Shown here one piece after another: positions 19,028 to 31,714 of a DNA stretch of 64,000 nt. The notes under the pieces were generated by a model. That model was not told the origin of the DNA. It did no database searches and saw nothing but the letters and a program-made list of their open reading frames with translations. The translations under genes and the position numbers were made by a program. This DNA is from Candidatus Altimarinota bacterium (GTDB lineage: Bacteria > Patescibacteriota > Gracilibacteria > UM-FILTER-43-11): NCBI GenBank assembly GCA_028281045.1, contig JANQKP010000001.1, forward strand, positions 124,001 through 188,000. Direction: 5' to 3'. Within the stretch, counting starts at the first letter, position 1. Every line of letters starts with the position of its first letter.

Positions 19028-21049
19028 ATGTATTACCGCAAACCACCTCGTAAGAAGGCAAGACATTACCTAATGCCTTTTATTATTATCGCGCTTTTAA
19101 TCGCGATCATCATTGCCGGATGGCAAGCTCTAAACAACGCTTTTATTGGAAATAGCCAAAGTATTTCACAAGAAAGAGTGTTTTTAAACATTGAAAATGG
19201 GAGCGCTAAAGCCATGACCGTTGGAAAAGGGGAATGGGTGAATGCACCAGATAAGATTTACCTTTACCGTGGTGAGCGTATTAAAACCGGAGCCGATGGA
19301 CGTGTGAGCCTGACTTTCTTTGATCAGAGCATTGTACGCCTGGATAAACGTTCTGAAGTAGAGTTTACGCAGCTAAAACGCAAGAAAGACGATAGTGAAA
19401 TTAAACTATTAATGAAAGATGGGGATGTATGGACCAATGTAGAACGTATTAATAATCCAGATTCTAGCTTCTCAATCACTACAGACACCCTTTCTATAGA
19501 TACTCGTGGCGGAGTGTTTGCGGTTCAGTATCCTGGAACGGTGTACATGATCGATGGTTTTGCTCAAGTGGATGTTAAATCGGATGACGAAGTGATCAAG
19601 TCTTACACTCTAGGAATTGGACAACAGCTTGTGATCGACGAAGAAGCTATTTCTGCTATTGAAAAAGATGAGGACCCACAAGTGATCTTCGCCCTAGACG
19701 AAGAATTCAAATCTTCTGCATGGTACCTATTTAACATGAAGAAAGATGGGGCTATTGAAGCCTTTGAAGAAAGCGACGAAGAAGAGGAGGAAGAAACAGG
19801 TGAAGCTGAAGAGGGTGAAAACACAGAAGAAAGTGCAGACGAAGATGATGAAGAAACCGTAGACGCTTCTAGAATTGGAGAGCCAGCCTACGTAACGGAT
19901 CCAAGTGGGGACATTGAAACCAACGCTGCCTCTATTTCTGTAGAGGGATTTTACGACAAAGAAGAAGTGGCTGCCGTTTACGTTGGAGGACGTAAAGCCA
20001 GTCTTGTTTCTAGTAGTAAATGGAAAGTGAGCACCGTACCTCTAGATAAAGAAGGGGTAAACACGCTTGCGATTGAAATGGAAGATAATGCTGGAAACCG
20101 TACTGAGATAGATTCTATTAAAGTAACCCTAGATACAGAAGCGCCTGAGGTACCAGTGATCGGAGATCCAGTGGTGGCCGAAGGTGAAACCAGTGTAACG
20201 CTTGAAGACATTGTTCAGGAAATTACAGGAACGGTAAGTTCAGACACAGACGCGGTAATTGTAAATGACTACCGCCTTGGTAAATACGTGCCAGGAAGCA
20301 AAGAATTTAAATACTTTGCTAAAACCGTTTATGGAAACCTAGAGGTAGGTGAAAATGAATTCGAAGTGATCGCAGAAGACAAGGCAGGAAATCAATCAGA
20401 GCCTGCAACGATTACCCTTGTGCTAGAACAAGAAGTCTTCGATGAAAAATCAGAAGAAGTGGAAGAAAGCACTTCAACAGAAGCACCAGCTTCAAGTTCA
20501 AGTGGGGGAGTTAAGATCACTTCACCAAACAACGGTGAAAACTTTGAAACCAGTGAAACTTCATTTGTAATTACTGGTGAAGTACCAACTCAAACCAAGA
20601 AAGTGATTGTAGATGGTTACACCCTGCAAGGTTACACCGCAGGAGATAGTACTTTTACATACCGCGCTTCAAGCGGTCTTGGAAACCTAGAAATTGGTGA
20701 AAAGAACACGTACACGGCCAAGGCTTACGATGAAAACGATGAGCTTATTGGTGAGGCGGTAATCACTATTGATGTAGAAAGCGATCAGGCTGGAGCGCCA
20801 ACGATTACTATTCCAACTAGTTCTGGAGCGTACACCACTACACTTGCTGAAATTGTAGTCGGTGGAACCGTAGGAAAATGGATTCAGAAAGTATACGTAA
20901 ATGGAGAACTCGTTAAGAGCTATGTACCAGGAAGCCAAAAGTGGACTCATGGGGTGACTTTAAACCCAGGAGAAAACACCATTTCTGTACAAGGTGAAAA
21001 AGACGGAAACAAAACATCGTCTGTTTCTACTAAAATTACTCTAGAGTAA
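19028..21049 (+). CDS. FecR-domain protein with three Ig-like repeats, membrane-anchored
   Basis: N-terminal TM; FecR-like region (LYRGERIKTGADGRVSLTFFDQSIVRLDKRSEVEF...LSIDTRGGVFAVQYPG); acidic linker; repeated Ig-like modules. Confidence 0.8.
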   Translation: MYYRKPPRKKARHYLMPFIIIALLIAIIIAGWQALNNAFIGNSQSISQERVFLNIENGSAKAMTVGKGEWVNAPDKIYLYRGERIKTGADGRVSLTFFDQSIVRLDKRSEVEFTQLKRKKDDSEIKLLMKDGDVWTNVERINNPDSSFSITTDTLSIDTRGGVFAVQYPGTVYMIDGFAQVDVKSDDEVIKSYTLGIGQQLVIDEEAISAIEKDEDPQVIFALDEEFKSSAWYLFNMKKDGAIEAFEESDEEEEEETGEAEEGENTEESADEDDEETVDASRIGEPAYVTDPSGDIETNAASISVEGFYDKEEVAAVYVGGRKASLVSSSKWKVSTVPLDKEGVNTLAIEMEDNAGNRTEIDSIKVTLDTEAPEVPVIGDPVVAEGETSVTLEDIVQEITGTVSSDTDAVIVNDYRLGKYVPGSKEFKYFAKTVYGNLEVGENEFEVIAEDKAGNQSEPATITLVLEQEVFDEKSEEVEESTSTEAPASSSSGGVKITSPNNGENFETSETSFVITGEVPTQTKKVIVDGYTLQGYTAGDSTFTYRASSGLGNLEIGEKNTYTAKAYDENDELIGEAVITIDVESDQAGAPTITIPTSSGAYTTTLAEIVVGGTVGKWIQKVYVNGELVKSYVPGSQKWTHGVTLNPGENTISVQGEKDGNKTSSVSTKITLE

Positions 21050-24099: not shown

Positions 24100-24127
24100 T
24101 TGACAAATTAGCATAATTTACTATAAT
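24100..24127 (+). promoter_or_regulatory. Promoter of giant orphan gene A
   Basis: TTGACA - 16 nt - TATAAT. Confidence 0.65.
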
Positions 24128-24149
24128 AACCTCCATTTATTTGTTTTAG

Positions 24150-27100
24150 ATGTCAGAGGTTGTTTCCCCCGAAGAATCATCAGTTGAAATTGAAAAGTCT
24201 CCAGAGGCCCAAGAAGGACTCGATACAAGAGCTGATATTCAAAGTGCTTTAAATCCTACAATGGAAGAGGTTTCAGGAAGACTAGACCGTCTTTTTAGGC
24301 GCTGGAGACAAAGAAGATGTGGCGAGCTTTTTGATTACGAAAAAGATCCAAGAAAAAGAGCAAACTACATTCGTCATGCGGGCAAAATGGGTTATGAGCC
24401 TAATGGAGCGAATGAAATGTTTTTCTTGCCCCGCCAAGATTACTATGAGATTCGAATCGCTCCTACATTGCTTGCTATGGCGGAGTCCCCACAGCACCTT
24501 GCTGAGCTGGGAGTGCTTTCGATTGAGTGTCTGGATAACCTAATGATGTCTACTTTTAATACCAGAGGCCGCTCTAGTACAAAAGGGTCATTAGTTGGTA
24601 ATTTTTTTAGATATATTAATCTTGATGAAGGTGGGCTTTATAAAGAGGGGCAGTTTCAATACTTTTATCAAAAATATGGTCCTGATGGTGTAAGAGCTAT
24701 TGCACGTATGCAGGGCTGCGTTTCTGATCGCTATTTTGATTCTATGGATGGTTCTAATAGTGTTCGAAAGGTGGAAGAATACTTAGACCCTATACTCGCT
24801 TTAATTCCAGGGTCTGCCCATTCTGATTTCTTCGCTGCTCTGGCTCAATTTTCAGATGGGGCAGGGGTGGAAAATATACTAGAGGAGATGCCACCTGTTT
24901 TTGAGAGGCTGAAAGATCATCCTTATGTTTTTGATTACTACTTTAAATTGCTCCTAGCTGAAGGGGAGTGGGCTAGTTACGACCATGCCTTTTTAAGAAA
25001 TCCTGAGGAGCTTAAGCAGCAACTTGGAGCGCTTCATGCGCATCCACAAAAGAAAGCGATGTTTGAAATGGCTGTTGGACTAATGGAGCTTGAGACGCAC
25101 AGTAAGCCCATTTTCGATACCAGCGATGATACTAGAACCGGTCGCACAATGAGTCACATAACGGTGCATCGCTATGTTAAAGAACTTTCTGAGGCAGGTT
25201 ATACCCCAAAGCAAATTGAAAAAATTGCCACCATACCTGCAAAAAATCCTTGGCTTGTAGATGCCGCAGATAATTTTCTTTCACTCTACGTAGAATTAGA
25301 TGCAAAATTCCCTGGGGGCGCAGAAGCTTGTTTAGCCTACCTTAAAAGACTAAAAGACGCAGGGGCTACAAGGCTTTGTATGCTAGGAACTATTACAAAC
25401 TTAGGAGAGCTTAAGTCTTATCCCAAAGATAAGATCGGACCTTACTTAGAACTTGGTGTTGAACTAGTGGAGATACTAGGAGATGACGGAGCTTATCCTT
25501 ATTTCAAGGCACCGTGGTCCGAAGGAGCTCACTTTATGAGAAAGATGATCAAGGATCCTGAGGGGTGGAGAGAAAAACTGCTGGAAGCAGCAAATTATGC
25601 TCTTCAATTCCCGACAGAAAAAGAACTCATGGCAGGAGATTCTCGAGGATATGTGTTCTTAAATTACGGATTCTTTATTGATGATCCTAATTTTGCCAAT
25701 CTAAAAGAAGGGATGGACCTTATTTTAGAAAAATGGCTTGGAGCCTTCAGTGGTATACTCGGGCAAGGAAATCTGAAGCCTTATGAAATTCGTAGAAAAG
25801 AGAAGGACATTAATATCATTATGGTAAAAATGTTGCATCACTTCTTTTTCCCACACCCGCACCCTGAGCATAGAGATCTGCCCATGCCTGGTGAGGCCAG
25901 CTTTTTAACAAGGGCTAAAATCATCACGCATTGGACAATAGATGAGGGGGACTTTCAAATGAGTAAGTTTGAAGAATACAGTAGCACCGTTTATGAAGGA
26001 ATTGATTGGCAAATTGCTGCACATATAAAACCTATTTTAGAAGGGGAAGCTGCTGGCGGCTATGAAGTTACTAGAATACCAGGAATTGCTATTCCTGTAT
26101 CTGAAGAGAAGCTACAAATGCTGGCAGGCCTAGTGATTAAGGCAAAAAATGCCATGGCAGCTGTAACTAAAACAGATCCTGTGGATGCTGATGATGCTGT
26201 GAAAGATGTAAAAAGGCTAAGCAAGAATGAAGCTCTAGCACAGGTAGACTTAAGTAAAACAGAGGCTCTTAGAGCAGTGAGCAAAGAAATAGAAGCTATT
26301 CAAAACGATCCTGAGCTTGGCCGCTATGTTAACTTTGAAAAGCTGCAAGAAAAAATAAGGACACTTGCTCATTTAGCCCTATTTAGAGATATGGGTGATA
26401 TTGGAATTAAAATTGGAAGATCAGATATCGATAGAACACCTTTGATGGCTACGACTAATGCTACAACCCAAAGTATTATTGGAGCCATGAGCTTCGTGGC
26501 AAGCCTTGGAGGGCAACGTGTGGAGGGAGTCAATGATGATATTGAGCCCCTGGTTCCTGATATGAGAATGATCCCAGACAGCACCAAGGCAGGTGAACTC
26601 AGTGATTTCTATAAAGGAAACATGAGGCAGATCATAAGCAATATCAACCAAGTGATGCCTCGTGTTCATAATCTTATTATGGAAGCCAGAACTAGAATCC
26701 CAGGGCTTGTACCTGTTGGACTTAAGATTCATACGCCACAATCTATGAATCAAACAGTGGTCTCTCTTGTAAGAGATGCTATGGGCATTGGAAATACTCC
26801 CTTTAAACTCATTCATGCAGGAGAAACCCTTGTGCTTGATCCAACCGTTAGTGCCTTTGAAATGCAACTGATGGTATTTGTACTGCAAACCTTTGGAGTT
26901 ATCCCAGAAGATGATCCAGATATGCAAACTACAGGGGTGGGGCGATGGTCTGACGAAAAAGCAGGTATCGCAGGAGCTTCAATGCTACTTTCAACCACAA
27001 GAGGTTCTCAATTTGCACCAGGTGCCTTTGCCACAAGCCATAACAGCCAGACTGGTGGACGTATTATGGTAAAAGATGCAGGCGCTAAAAATGTGATAAT

Positions 27101-27533
27101 GCCTTTTGGAATGAATGATGTTGCTGAAGGAAGAGTGGATAAACTAGGGAATCGTATTCATACTGACATCTCTCGGTATCAAGTGCTTTCAACCCTAATG
27201 GCCCATGCTGAATATGGAGGTATTTTTGAAAAAGAAGCCCAAGAGTTCATCAGCATGTTCAAAAGAATTCTTGAAAAGTACGACTTAGTAAAACCTTTCT
27301 GCCAATCGGCTTGGCTTTATGGAAACGCCGAAGATGGAGATAGTTTAGATAATCATGAATCAATGATTAGAGCTTTTACAGAGGCTTGGAAAAGAGCAGC
27401 AAATTCACCAGATAAAGGCATCATCAATGAAATGCACAAGCTGATCAATTACACCACGCGTAAAATGGCCGCTCGTAAAGAGGAGGTTAAAAATACTCAT
27501 CACGATGAGTATCAAGCGATGCTTGCCTATTAA
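24150..27533 (+). CDS. Giant orphan protein A (1127 aa), paralog of 28197..31319
   Basis: Long ORF sharing GLxPVGxKxH, FxLIHAG, AFExQ, GRWSxExA, SMLL and GRxDxLGxRIxxDIxxYQVL motifs with protein B. Confidence 0.9.
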   Translation: MSEVVSPEESSVEIEKSPEAQEGLDTRADIQSALNPTMEEVSGRLDRLFRRWRQRRCGELFDYEKDPRKRANYIRHAGKMGYEPNGANEMFFLPRQDYYEIRIAPTLLAMAESPQHLAELGVLSIECLDNLMMSTFNTRGRSSTKGSLVGNFFRYINLDEGGLYKEGQFQYFYQKYGPDGVRAIARMQGCVSDRYFDSMDGSNSVRKVEEYLDPILALIPGSAHSDFFAALAQFSDGAGVENILEEMPPVFERLKDHPYVFDYYFKLLLAEGEWASYDHAFLRNPEELKQQLGALHAHPQKKAMFEMAVGLMELETHSKPIFDTSDDTRTGRTMSHITVHRYVKELSEAGYTPKQIEKIATIPAKNPWLVDAADNFLSLYVELDAKFPGGAEACLAYLKRLKDAGATRLCMLGTITNLGELKSYPKDKIGPYLELGVELVEILGDDGAYPYFKAPWSEGAHFMRKMIKDPEGWREKLLEAANYALQFPTEKELMAGDSRGYVFLNYGFFIDDPNFANLKEGMDLILEKWLGAFSGILGQGNLKPYEIRRKEKDINIIMVKMLHHFFFPHPHPEHRDLPMPGEASFLTRAKIITHWTIDEGDFQMSKFEEYSSTVYEGIDWQIAAHIKPILEGEAAGGYEVTRIPGIAIPVSEEKLQMLAGLVIKAKNAMAAVTKTDPVDADDAVKDVKRLSKNEALAQVDLSKTEALRAVSKEIEAIQNDPELGRYVNFEKLQEKIRTLAHLALFRDMGDIGIKIGRSDIDRTPLMATTNATTQSIIGAMSFVASLGGQRVEGVNDDIEPLVPDMRMIPDSTKAGELSDFYKGNMRQIISNINQVMPRVHNLIMEARTRIPGLVPVGLKIHTPQSMNQTVVSLVRDAMGIGNTPFKLIHAGETLVLDPTVSAFEMQLMVFVLQTFGVIPEDDPDMQTTGVGRWSDEKAGIAGASMLLSTTRGSQFAPGAFATSHNSQTGGRIMVKDAGAKNVIMPFGMNDVAEGRVDKLGNRIHTDISRYQVLSTLMAHAEYGGIFEKEAQEFISMFKRILEKYDLVKPFCQSAWLYGNAEDGDSLDNHESMIRAFTEAWKRAANSPDKGIINEMHKLINYTTRKMAARKEEVKNTHHDEYQAMLAY

Positions 27534-27534
27534 T

Positions 27535-27562
27535 TTGACAAGTTCTTATCTCATGATAAGAT
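27535..27562 (+). promoter_or_regulatory. Promoter of small MC-HH gene 1, with palindrome
   Basis: TTGACA - 16 nt - TAAGAT; CTTATC-tcat-GATAAG inverted repeat overlaps the spacer/-10. Confidence 0.55.
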
Positions 27563-27591
27563 TAAACCTTAATTAGCTAACATTAAGTCCC

Positions 27592-28122
27592 ATGTGCGAA
27601 TCCCACCACCACACAGCAGTAACTGAAGTTGAAGATATAAATCCAGACGGTCTTGGTCAGATTGATGATGCAACCGTCGATGAAATTGAAGGTAATTCAG
27701 CGGAGCCCCAAGGATTGATGAATAAAGCTGCAGAAATAGGTAGAAAGATAATGCCCACTAGAAACAAGGTAAAAAAGACCACTGAACAACCTAAAGCACC
27801 AGAGACTCCAGAAAAGCTGCCTGAAGCTAAAGCGCTAAAGCAAATCAGAGAAGTGCGTGCTAAGCTTAAGACAGTGGTTGATGAAGAGCGTAAAATGCCC
27901 TCAGGTAAAAAAGGAAGACATATTAGAAGAAACTTCAAAGGTAGAACTCTAATTGAACTAGCCCAATTACTTGAAATTGAAGGGTTCCCGATAGATGGGA
28001 AAACAGCTATTCGCCAACAAGATCGCGTTCTAAATGCCTTACAGGAAAAGCTTGCTAGAGGCATGATGAGCGATGCAGAAGTTGAAGCTATTCTTCCTAA
28101 ATTCTTGAAAGAACAGCAATAA
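27592..28122 (+). CDS. Small orphan protein starting MCESHHH, partner of protein A
   Basis: 176-aa ORF. N-terminus MCESHH parallels MCDDHH of 31358..31714; both end in a basic/helical C-terminal region. Confidence 0.8.
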   Translation: MCESHHHTAVTEVEDINPDGLGQIDDATVDEIEGNSAEPQGLMNKAAEIGRKIMPTRNKVKKTTEQPKAPETPEKLPEAKALKQIREVRAKLKTVVDEERKMPSGKKGRHIRRNFKGRTLIELAQLLEIEGFPIDGKTAIRQQDRVLNALQEKLARGMMSDAEVEAILPKFLKEQQ

Positions 28123-28138
28123 AACACAAGTGAATAGG

Positions 28139-28167
28139 TTGACGTAAAAGTATTTTAGTTTTAAAAT
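28139..28167 (+). promoter_or_regulatory. Promoter of giant orphan gene B
   Basis: TTGACG - 17 nt - TAAAAT. Confidence 0.6.
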
Positions 28168-28196
28168 ACTACCTAATATCACTTGTTGCCTTTTTC

Positions 28197-31100
28197 ATGG
28201 CGGAAAAGCTAAAACCACAGGAGCCAAACTCTGAAGCTCTAGCAGTGCAAGAAAGGGTAGATGAAGCTTTATTGGCTGTTGACGCAAAAGAGTTAATTGG
28301 AAAGCCTTATTACCATGTCGCCATGCGTGCCAGGGACCATTTAGAAATGCTTAACCCTATTTTTAGAGAGCGGGCCAGGCTAGCCATACCGGAGCGGTAT
28401 AGAGCGGATGCTGATGAAGCCTATGAAAACCACATTCGTGTTAGCGCTCAACAAAAAACCATTGATGAAAGGCATATAGGTAGGGTTAAGGGTGATCTTT
28501 TAGAAGATATGGCCATGATGAGTCTTGATCACATGCATGAAAAAGGACAGGAAAACAATACCGATTCAACCATGCTTTATGTGCAAATTCCTGTGGTGAT
28601 TGACTACTTTATTGAGCAGGGTAGGGAGGAGCTTATTCCTACCTATCTTGAATTTACAAAGCTAGCTCCAAGAGTGGCCCCGATGCACCTAATAATCAAT
28701 CCAAATAGGGGGCCAGAGGGGCGTTTTTCACTGATGGATCCAGAGTGGATTTATGAAGAGCTGCTTGCAATAGAAGCTTACCCCGACTTTAAAGATGAAA
28801 TCATTGCATTCATGAAGCTGTTTGTACCCATGGATGTTTACCATCATGTGGGCATGCGCATTAAGCAACCTGAGCTGGGTGGGGCAGTTCCTTTGAATGT
28901 GATCATAGATAAATTCATAGAACTTAACTTGTCGACAGAAAGAATTAAAGAGCTCTTAATGCTTCCTGTAAAGCATTCTGAGCTCTTTAACGTCATTGCA
29001 GACATATTATGTAATTACCAAAGAGTAGACAGACGTTTTCCGGGAGGTTTTGATGCCTATGTTGAGTTTTTACTTTCTGTCCGTAGCGCAAAGAAAGGGA
29101 TGGAGGAGCATGCGATGCGCATAGCGCAAGATGAAGAGCGGGAATATATGACGCTTTGTGCCCCCATGATGGAAACTATTCAGTATGGAGTGAATAAATT
29201 GGAAGACGCTGCGCGGCCACTATTTTACCTTGATAGCGCCGATAGTTTTTATTTTGTTTATGCCTTCGACAAATTATCTATGGAGTCATACATGCCTTTA
29301 GATGAAGAGGCTGATGACAATAACATTATTCATCATATATGTCTGATGCTAGAAAAGTACTATCATAATTTGCTTGATAGTGAACCAGAAAAAGTCAAAG
29401 AATTAATTCTCCCTCTAGTAGATAGGGTGGCTCAGTTTCCCGTGATCATGAGTGCCAATGGTGATGTGCGAACCCTTATTTTAAAGATCGCTCTTTTTGC
29501 AGATGCAAAAGGGATCTTAGATGAAGCTATGGAAGCGGCCCAAAAAATAATAGACCATGCAAGGCCCAATCTTTTAGAGCTTAATGGAGTTTCTTATGAA
29601 GAAGATGCAAGAGTAGAAAATGCCCTAGGAGCACTGCAATACTATGTGATGTTCACACCAGAATATAGAACGCTAGATGAGGAAGTGCATGCTATTATTC
29701 ATCTCTTAATGAGTGATGGAAAAAGATTCATTGAGTTTCAAAGAGGGACCTATGATCATTACCCAGAAAGGGGGAATATTTATTACCCTTACGTTTTAAA
29801 TTACTCAAAAAACAGCTTTGGAGATGCCTATGTTTCAGGAATCGATTGGGATACAGACGCCATTGATATCAATGAGAAATTTTCAGAAGAAGAAATAGCA
29901 GGCCTTAAGCTACTAGAAGGAGATGTTGAAATATTTGTAACCGCTAAAAAACTCCTACATGGAAATGTGGTAGCTGAGGACTACGAAGAAATTAAAGATT
30001 TTTTAGAAAGATTTTCTGCACATGAATTTAGCCCACTTGGTAAGGAGCTTTATCAAATTGAATTTACCAAGGGGCATTTAGATGAAAAATGGAGAAGGCT
30101 CTATTCAGAGCTCATGCTAAAAAGGCATGAGGCCTTATGTAAAAAAATAATGTCTACGGGTATTAATACGGGCAAAAGTCAGATCATTCAAAGTTCTATG
30201 TCAGAGCAAGAATCCGATGTCACTAGAACAGCTATAGCAGGAATGAGTTTCCTTATGGCCATTGGAGCTCATAGGCCAGAAGGAATGCCTAACATCTCTT
30301 TCCCAGAGGTTCCCAGGTTTGTTATTGGTGAAATGGAAACAGAGGAAAAGGGGGAGCCATTTGAAAACTTTGTAAATGAATACGGAGACATGAAGGACCA
30401 GATCATAGAAAACATGCGCAGGGTCACTCCTTTTATTGAAAAACAAATCATGGCCGCCAGGCAGCGTTCGCGCGGCCTAATGCCTGTAGGAGGAAAGGTG
30501 CATGTAAAGGAGGCTATGAGCGGAAATCTAGTTAATTTCCTATCTGAGCTCTTTGGCTTTGGGCAAACTTCATTCCGCCTCATTCATGCAGGCTCTTCTA
30601 TGCTGCTTCCTGTTTCAACAACGGCCTTTGAATTGCAAATGTTCCTTTCTGTACTGGAATCCTTTGGGGTAACCGATAATAAAAATCCAGACCTTCAGAT
30701 TTCTGTGGCTGGAAGATGGTCTCCAGAAACTGCTCCTATTGTAGGAAGTTCTATGCTTCTGGCTACCCAAGCAGGAGGAACCTATGAACCTAATGATTTT
30801 GTTACTACGCATCAGCAGACAGGGGCCAGAATCATGGCTTACGATGATGGAATAAGAAGAGAATATGAATGGGAGGCAGATCTGGCAAACGCAAAAGGTC
30901 GTACTGATATTCTTGGGCGTCGTATTGTTTCTGACATTCCTCTTTATCAAGTACTTGGAACTCTGGCGTCACATCACGATTACGATGGTCCTCTAAAAGG
31001 CACCTTTGCAGATTACCGAGGAAAATTACACAGCGTACTAGGTAAACATGGCTTAAGAGACGCTATTTATAGTGCGGCTTGGATCAAGCAACATGAAGAT

Positions 31101-31319
31101 GGAGATGACCCTATGCCCCATGTAAATATGGTAAATAGGCTAGGGGAAGCTTATTTAGATAGCGCTGCTGCATTTAGAAAAACAGGCCGTATATCTGGAA
31201 CCCCTATGGGAGATGTGGGCAGAGTAATAGCCGAAACCATGGTATCCTGCCGTGATCAGGCAGGCGATGTAGTTAAAGCCCTTTCTAGCCAAAATCAAAA
31301 AATCATTGCAGAAAAGTAA
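28197..31319 (+). CDS. Giant orphan protein B (1040 aa), paralog of protein A
   Basis: Collinear motif conservation with protein A over the C-terminal part, plus a shared FPGG region further N-terminal. Confidence 0.9.
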   Translation: MAEKLKPQEPNSEALAVQERVDEALLAVDAKELIGKPYYHVAMRARDHLEMLNPIFRERARLAIPERYRADADEAYENHIRVSAQQKTIDERHIGRVKGDLLEDMAMMSLDHMHEKGQENNTDSTMLYVQIPVVIDYFIEQGREELIPTYLEFTKLAPRVAPMHLIINPNRGPEGRFSLMDPEWIYEELLAIEAYPDFKDEIIAFMKLFVPMDVYHHVGMRIKQPELGGAVPLNVIIDKFIELNLSTERIKELLMLPVKHSELFNVIADILCNYQRVDRRFPGGFDAYVEFLLSVRSAKKGMEEHAMRIAQDEEREYMTLCAPMMETIQYGVNKLEDAARPLFYLDSADSFYFVYAFDKLSMESYMPLDEEADDNNIIHHICLMLEKYYHNLLDSEPEKVKELILPLVDRVAQFPVIMSANGDVRTLILKIALFADAKGILDEAMEAAQKIIDHARPNLLELNGVSYEEDARVENALGALQYYVMFTPEYRTLDEEVHAIIHLLMSDGKRFIEFQRGTYDHYPERGNIYYPYVLNYSKNSFGDAYVSGIDWDTDAIDINEKFSEEEIAGLKLLEGDVEIFVTAKKLLHGNVVAEDYEEIKDFLERFSAHEFSPLGKELYQIEFTKGHLDEKWRRLYSELMLKRHEALCKKIMSTGINTGKSQIIQSSMSEQESDVTRTAIAGMSFLMAIGAHRPEGMPNISFPEVPRFVIGEMETEEKGEPFENFVNEYGDMKDQIIENMRRVTPFIEKQIMAARQRSRGLMPVGGKVHVKEAMSGNLVNFLSELFGFGQTSFRLIHAGSSMLLPVSTTAFELQMFLSVLESFGVTDNKNPDLQISVAGRWSPETAPIVGSSMLLATQAGGTYEPNDFVTTHQQTGARIMAYDDGIRREYEWEADLANAKGRTDILGRRIVSDIPLYQVLGTLASHHDYDGPLKGTFADYRGKLHSVLGKHGLRDAIYSAAWIKQHEDGDDPMPHVNMVNRLGEAYLDSAAAFRKTGRISGTPMGDVGRVIAETMVSCRDQAGDVVKALSSQNQKIIAEK

Positions 31320-31357
31320 AAGTACTGCTACATTTAACTCTAATAACACCTTATATT

Positions 31358-31714
31358 ATGTGTGACGATCACCACGGAATATCAACAGCTAAAGCAGAAA
31401 CCATGCCAGCTTCACCAGTGGTAGCTGCTGGAGTAGAAAGTAACGAAGGGCCAAAAAACTTGGCTGAAATGGTGACTTCTCTTAGAGGTTTAATTGATGG
31501 CCTCATTGCAAGTGAAGAACACATTGGACCTAAAAAGGTAAACAAGTGGCAAGCAGATTCTAATGCTAAGATTGCCGAAGCCATTGGCATTGTTGATGTA
31601 CCTAAAACGAATAAGGCCCGTTTAAATATGAAGGATAAGCTTAGAGCTCAGCTGCAACTTATTCTAGGAGAAGATGTGAAGCTTCCTAAATATCTTGAAC
31701 CAACAAAGAACTAA
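31358..31714 (+). CDS. Small orphan protein starting MCDDHH, partner of protein B
   Basis: 118-aa ORF, same relative position and N-terminal motif as 27592..28122. Confidence 0.8.
   Translation: MCDDHHGISTAKAETMPASPVVAAGVESNEGPKNLAEMVTSLRGLIDGLIASEEHIGPKKVNKWQADSNAKIAEAIGIVDVPKTNKARLNMKDKLRAQLQLILGEDVKLPKYLEPTKN

Follow-up and report, generated by a model that had tools for sequence, protein, structure and literature searches.

We analysed a 64,000-nucleotide stretch of DNA from Candidatus Altimarinota bacterium (the window) and focus here on four consecutive open reading frames, all on the forward strand. Giant A (24150..27533; 1127 aa) is followed by small partner 1 (27592..28122; 176 aa, starting MCESHHH), giant B (28197..31319; 1040 aa), and small partner 2 (31358..31714; 118 aa, starting MCDDHHG), with intergenic gaps of 58, 74, and 38 nt. 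This order and orientation are those read by an earlier note on this DNA. A and B are the giant copies of this genome, and we find no others in its 1.2 Mb (9 contigs). Elsewhere in the window, positions 19028-21049 encode a large acidic-linker protein (673 aa); its N-terminus includes a hydrophobic stretch, domain-like units are repeated within it, and it looks surface-exposed.

Giants A and B are paralogs. They align over 361 C-terminal residues with 35% identity (E = 9e-60), and the collinear motifs that the earlier note had listed are present in the A/B alignment. N-terminal similarity is weak and amounts to one stretch that includes the FPGG region (E = 1e-5). Using an alignment of 26 sequences, we place the conserved C-terminal cores at 26493..27530 (+) for A and 30279..31316 (+) for B. 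The earlier note had described a duplicated two-gene module; the paralogy stands, while an evident recent tandem copy does not. A and B are not paired in the core tree, where the branches concerned are weakly supported, and the distance between their cores is about the same as their distance to copies from other families. A recent tandem duplication is thus unsupported.

Neither giant has a relative in Pfam, NCBIfam, PHROGs, PADLOC, or PDB sequences, whether searched with single sequences or profiles, consistent with the earlier impression that they belong to no known family. We rejected a PHROG match to B that spans only 35 residues (E = 0.0026) and an NCBIfam match to small partner 2 that falls far under its cutoff. 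A contig scan with B alone was empty because its peptides are poorly conserved, and relatives were recovered with a core profile. Of 360 genomes from the organism's own class (Peregrinibacteria/Gracilibacteria-type bacteria), 22 contain giants by this profile, spread across many families; those relatives that carry a name are for the most part Candidatus Peregrinibacteria/Peribacteria. Among 389 genomes sampled from the phylum, none outside the class has a giant, bar one doubtful 43-residue match. That match (G662; E = 1.8e-4 over 43 positions) sits in a different 370-aa ORF and was taken as chance. Phage, plasmid, and viral-contig records likewise contain no match to the giant family. Our comparison set consists of 26 giants, whose cores are 22-37% identical to that of B. 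In-frame TGA codons occur in several members and were translated as Gly; the giants at loci L058, L059, L061, and L064 come from genomes read in this way.

Complete giants range from 528 to 1826 aa, and throughout the family conservation is limited to the C-terminal ~270-300 aa. The better conservation of the C-terminal part, first noticed between A and B, holds across the family alignment. The N-terminal parts form at least three groups between which similarity is undetectable, and the largest of these groups has no credible match in Pfam or PDB. Within the core, G765, H769, F793, Q834, F868, R902, D904, and W962 (B numbering) are invariant in the 26 rows, and K767 (K or R), H797, T875, G901, and H975 are nearly so. 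Two of the resulting motifs are G765-x-K767-x-H769 (30489..30503, +) and G901-R902-T903-D904 (30897..30908, +). Of these invariant and nearly invariant residues, K767, H769, Q834, R902, D904, and H975 look catalytic.

The small gene accompanies the giant well beyond this genome. A tagged small gene is present at the locus of 25 of the 26 giants, and together with the lack of any profile match of A or B to a known family this bears out the proposal of a lineage-specific system in which each large protein works with its small partner. The partner lies directly 3' of the giant, or slightly overlaps its end, at 22 loci. At two further loci (L058 and L064) it is upstream of the giant and divergently transcribed, so shared transcription alone cannot explain the linkage. 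At L047 the partner comes after a second, broken giant copy; this locus (G338:C37, 5396-9800 of the reverse complement) carries tandem giants broken into frames of 312, 789, and 159 aa, with a single tagged small gene after the last broken piece. The exception, L046, has no partner at its giant locus, and in the same genome two tagged genes adjoin the other giant (L049). These are consecutive genes of 88 and 542 aa after one giant (L049:9519-11444, +), an arrangement also seen at L057 (4325-6691, -; 71 and 708 aa). Based on these data, the pair is a real lineage-specific two-gene system, and giant and small neighbor very probably form a dedicated two-protein unit.

What defines a partner is its extreme N-terminus. 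The tags of partner 1 (MCESHHHTAV; 27592..27621, +) and partner 2 (MCDDHHGIST; 31358..31387, +) contain the only similarity between the two proteins, MC[DE]xHH. Beyond close relatives the part common to partners is the N-terminal tag M-[C/G/T]-x-x-H alone, within the first 5-8 residues, and the family signature is M-C-x-x-H-[R/H/K/T]. The "MC-HH" start noted for both small proteins is correct as an N-terminal tag, while the conserved His is the first of the two. Most partners have Cys at position 2; Gly replaces it at L060 and L062, and single partners have Thr and Val. The true start of the Val2 partner may be one codon further on, at a GTG after which Cys comes next. Position 2 is always small (C, G, T, or V) and hence permissive for Met removal. 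Position 5 is His except at L054, L055, and L056, whose partners all start MCQ; at L048 a one-residue gap is needed to align the tag His. At the two loci with Gly for Cys2 (MG[ST][DQ]HRGV), the giants have Arg for K767 and Phe for H975.

Outside the tag, partner sequence is of low complexity, with 58-81% disorder-promoting residues by composition. Partners are 55-708 aa long and mostly unalignable past the tag, with a weakly similar, helical-looking stretch at the C-terminus that often ends like LPxFL. The tag is an uncommon way for an ORF to begin. Among 4241 ATG-initiated ORFs in these loci, 19 start MC..H, and 17 of the 19 are partners; in the organism's own genome the MC[DE]xH DNA pattern has exactly two matches, the genes for small partners 1 and 2. 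Off-locus pattern matches in other genomes are mostly short or truncated frames, and two longer ones of 221 aa (L101 and L111) are open upstream and antisense-looking. The tag codons differ synonymously among partners, which makes an RNA element at the tag unlikely.

Variation in the tag and in the core is linked. Scanning all core columns against the presence of His5, we find that H797 of B, the histidine of the LIHA motif (30585..30587, +; H889 of A), is the sole column perfectly associated (3/3 versus 20/20; p = 5.6e-4, uncorrected for the number of columns). In the core tree, His5 and H797 show three independent losses each, at separate positions and always jointly, with no discordant case; L057, the sister of L056, has kept both. 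The joint loss represents three events, a number at which a sign test cannot be significant. This covariation suggests that His5 and H797 are in direct contact or share a ligand. The lengths of giant and partner are also correlated (Spearman rho = 0.87, n = 23, p = 5e-8, uncorrected for shared ancestry).

A glutamine synthetase (GS) fold is common to carboxylate-amine ligases such as PafA, Dop, GCS2, and the amidoligases. We compared AlphaFold2 models of the B core (pLDDT 82, pTM 0.81) and of the L045 core (29% identical to the B core; pLDDT 81.7, pTM 0.82), which contain their elements in the same order. In Foldseek searches against PDB, glutamine synthetases, PafA, Dop, and YbdK/GCS2 ranked first for both models, and the named BFVD matches of the B-core model are mostly phage amidoligases. 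The top matches are weak (E >0.001, TM-scores ~0.3, rmsd >11 Å). As these families belong to one superfamily, chance would hardly explain the agreement, and on balance we consider a GS-like fold of the core moderately likely from the models. The canonical E-x-E metal motif is absent from the conserved core, where the first conserved strand has G-x-K-x-H, and the unconserved upstream part could still hide such a motif. We tentatively map G-x-K-x-H to the strand that bears E-x-E in the ligases, P-x-L-Q to the H-x-H strand, and GRTD to the E-F-R / R-x-E-x-R strand. If this mapping is right, the metal ligands are replaced, and the core may have changed or lost its chemistry. When the L045 model was extended by read-through into the first 18 residues of its own partner, the tail was disordered (pLDDT <50) and gave no sign that the tethered tag docks.

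The system fails the sequence and motif tests for each known family tested, and may perhaps resemble these families in how it works. Profile comparisons of the core with amidoligase, GS, and Pup ligase alignments gave no match and were mostly no better than reversed controls (hhalign probabilities of 0.2%, 1.8%, and 0.1%, respectively). Glutamine synthetases (8fbp, 4hpp, 8tge) and YbdK (1r8g, 1tt4) are among the best PDB fold matches; however, the giants' core lacks the GS signature motif, is fused to large unrelated N-terminal parts, and has an obligate small partner. Amidoligases (Pfam Amidoligase_2, PF12224) account for the majority of named BFVD matches of the B-core model, but the invariant E-x-E and H-x-H of the amidoligase alignment are replaced in the giants, and PF12224 was not found in the organism's genome. 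Pup is conjugated through its C-terminus, which ends in Gly-Gly-Glu/Gln. In pupylation, the ligase PafA and the depupylase Dop act with Pup (PMC3511204). Both are among the best PDB matches of the two core models (4bjr, 9cku, 7oyh, 4b0r), and they are GS-fold enzymes acting on a small, largely disordered protein, as the giants may be, the partners here being disordered by composition only. The differences are that the giants have no sequence match to Pup ligase and are much larger than PafA, that A and B match nothing in Pfam, and that the partners are conserved at their N-terminal end, with C-termini that vary and lack Gly-Gly-Glu/Gln. Searches of the organism's genome (96% complete) gave no match to Pup_ligase (PF03136) or to the proteasome family PF00227, the latter search being positive in 10 of 14 controls. 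Conjugation, if any, would thus lie outside the classical Pup-proteasome route; some pupylation systems lack a proteasome, which is hence only a supporting feature. Among 294 genomes sampled from the phylum, two carry true Pup-ligase family genes (L074 in G610 and L075 in G389), and both are outside the organism's class.

Based on these observations, the pair looks like an undescribed enzyme-and-tag system. Met removal would free the partner's N-terminus, a Cys or occasionally Gly or Thr, and the core would bind this end with the tag His5 next to core H797. Recognition of the partner through its tag is quite likely. The core might then modify or conjugate this end in an ATP-driven reaction, a step that we propose only weakly; ligase-type chemistry is less likely than not. 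The remainder of the partner would serve as a linker that spans the giant's large N-terminal part, hence the scaling of partner length with giant length, and the interchangeable N-terminal parts would pick the target or scaffold the complex. As a whole, our best explanation, to which we give somewhat less than even confidence, is that the partner's N-terminus is captured, and probably also modified or conjugated, by a core with a GS-like fold. In its most specific form, a GS-fold enzyme within the giant would link the disordered partner via its Cys-x-x-His tag, giving candidate-phyla bacteria a protein-conjugation or tagging system; this form is unlikely, and would be a mirror image of Pup, with an N-terminal tag in place of C-terminal joining.

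A non-catalytic complex is a possible alternative, in which a degenerate GS-fold or other domain merely binds the partner's N-terminal motif. In such a structural or regulatory assembly, the linker would act as a tether, and a metal might be shared by Cys2, His5, and H797. The missing metal-binding Glu of the GS fold favors this alternative, and both the joint loss of two histidines and the co-scaling of lengths are consistent with it, the former with a shared ligand and the latter with a tether. However, H769, Q834, R902, D904, and H975 lie far from the tag signature and are more active-site-like than groove-like.

It is improbable that the pair is a conflict system (toxin-antitoxin, defense, or inter-bacterial), with the giant as effector and the small protein as controller. 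The patchy presence in 22 of 360 class genomes from many families, the carriage of one core by at least three unrelated N-terminal types, and the broken tandem copies in G338 would fit such a system. Against it, there is no PADLOC model match to known anti-phage defense and no defense neighborhood, the neighbors are neither defense nor mobile genes, the window flanks are housekeeping-like, and searches of phage, plasmid, and viral collections yielded none. We consider RiPP-like maturation, in which the giant modifies the Cys-x-x-His region of a precursor and a bioactive peptide or cofactor is released, to be quite improbable. A short conserved tag beside a putative peptide-acting enzyme, an N-terminal Cys as a reactive handle, and partners of 55-65 aa are all in its favor, but many partners are 200-700 aa, and conservation sits at the N-terminus instead of following the pattern of a leader ahead of a variable core peptide. 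In addition, no transporter, protease, or tailoring gene recurs as a third gene beside the giant and its small conserved neighbor; apart from synteny within a genus and the scattered occurrence of a few common families, no neighbor gene recurs. Finally, chance or overlapping small ORFs, or annotation artefacts, would explain the lack of mutual similarity outside the tag, but are ruled out to near certainty by the tag's enrichment at giant loci, its two-only pattern matches in the organism's genome, its synonymous codon variation, and the occupancy of 25 of 26 loci.

Returning to capture of the partner's N-terminus by the core, the covariation of a residue pair across two genes makes the cognate-pair idea testable by two point mutants. 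For the two-gene family that these bacteria carry, the libraries searched contain no sequence relative, and its recognition signature is unusually clear, at the extreme N-terminus of an otherwise unconserved protein. If the core is not GS-like, the system has no known kind to join. Should the core turn out to be a GS-fold enzyme, ligases of the PafA/amidoligase type would gain, in candidate-phyla bacteria, a form that lacks the canonical metal motif, and a protein modification directed at the N-terminus might come to light.
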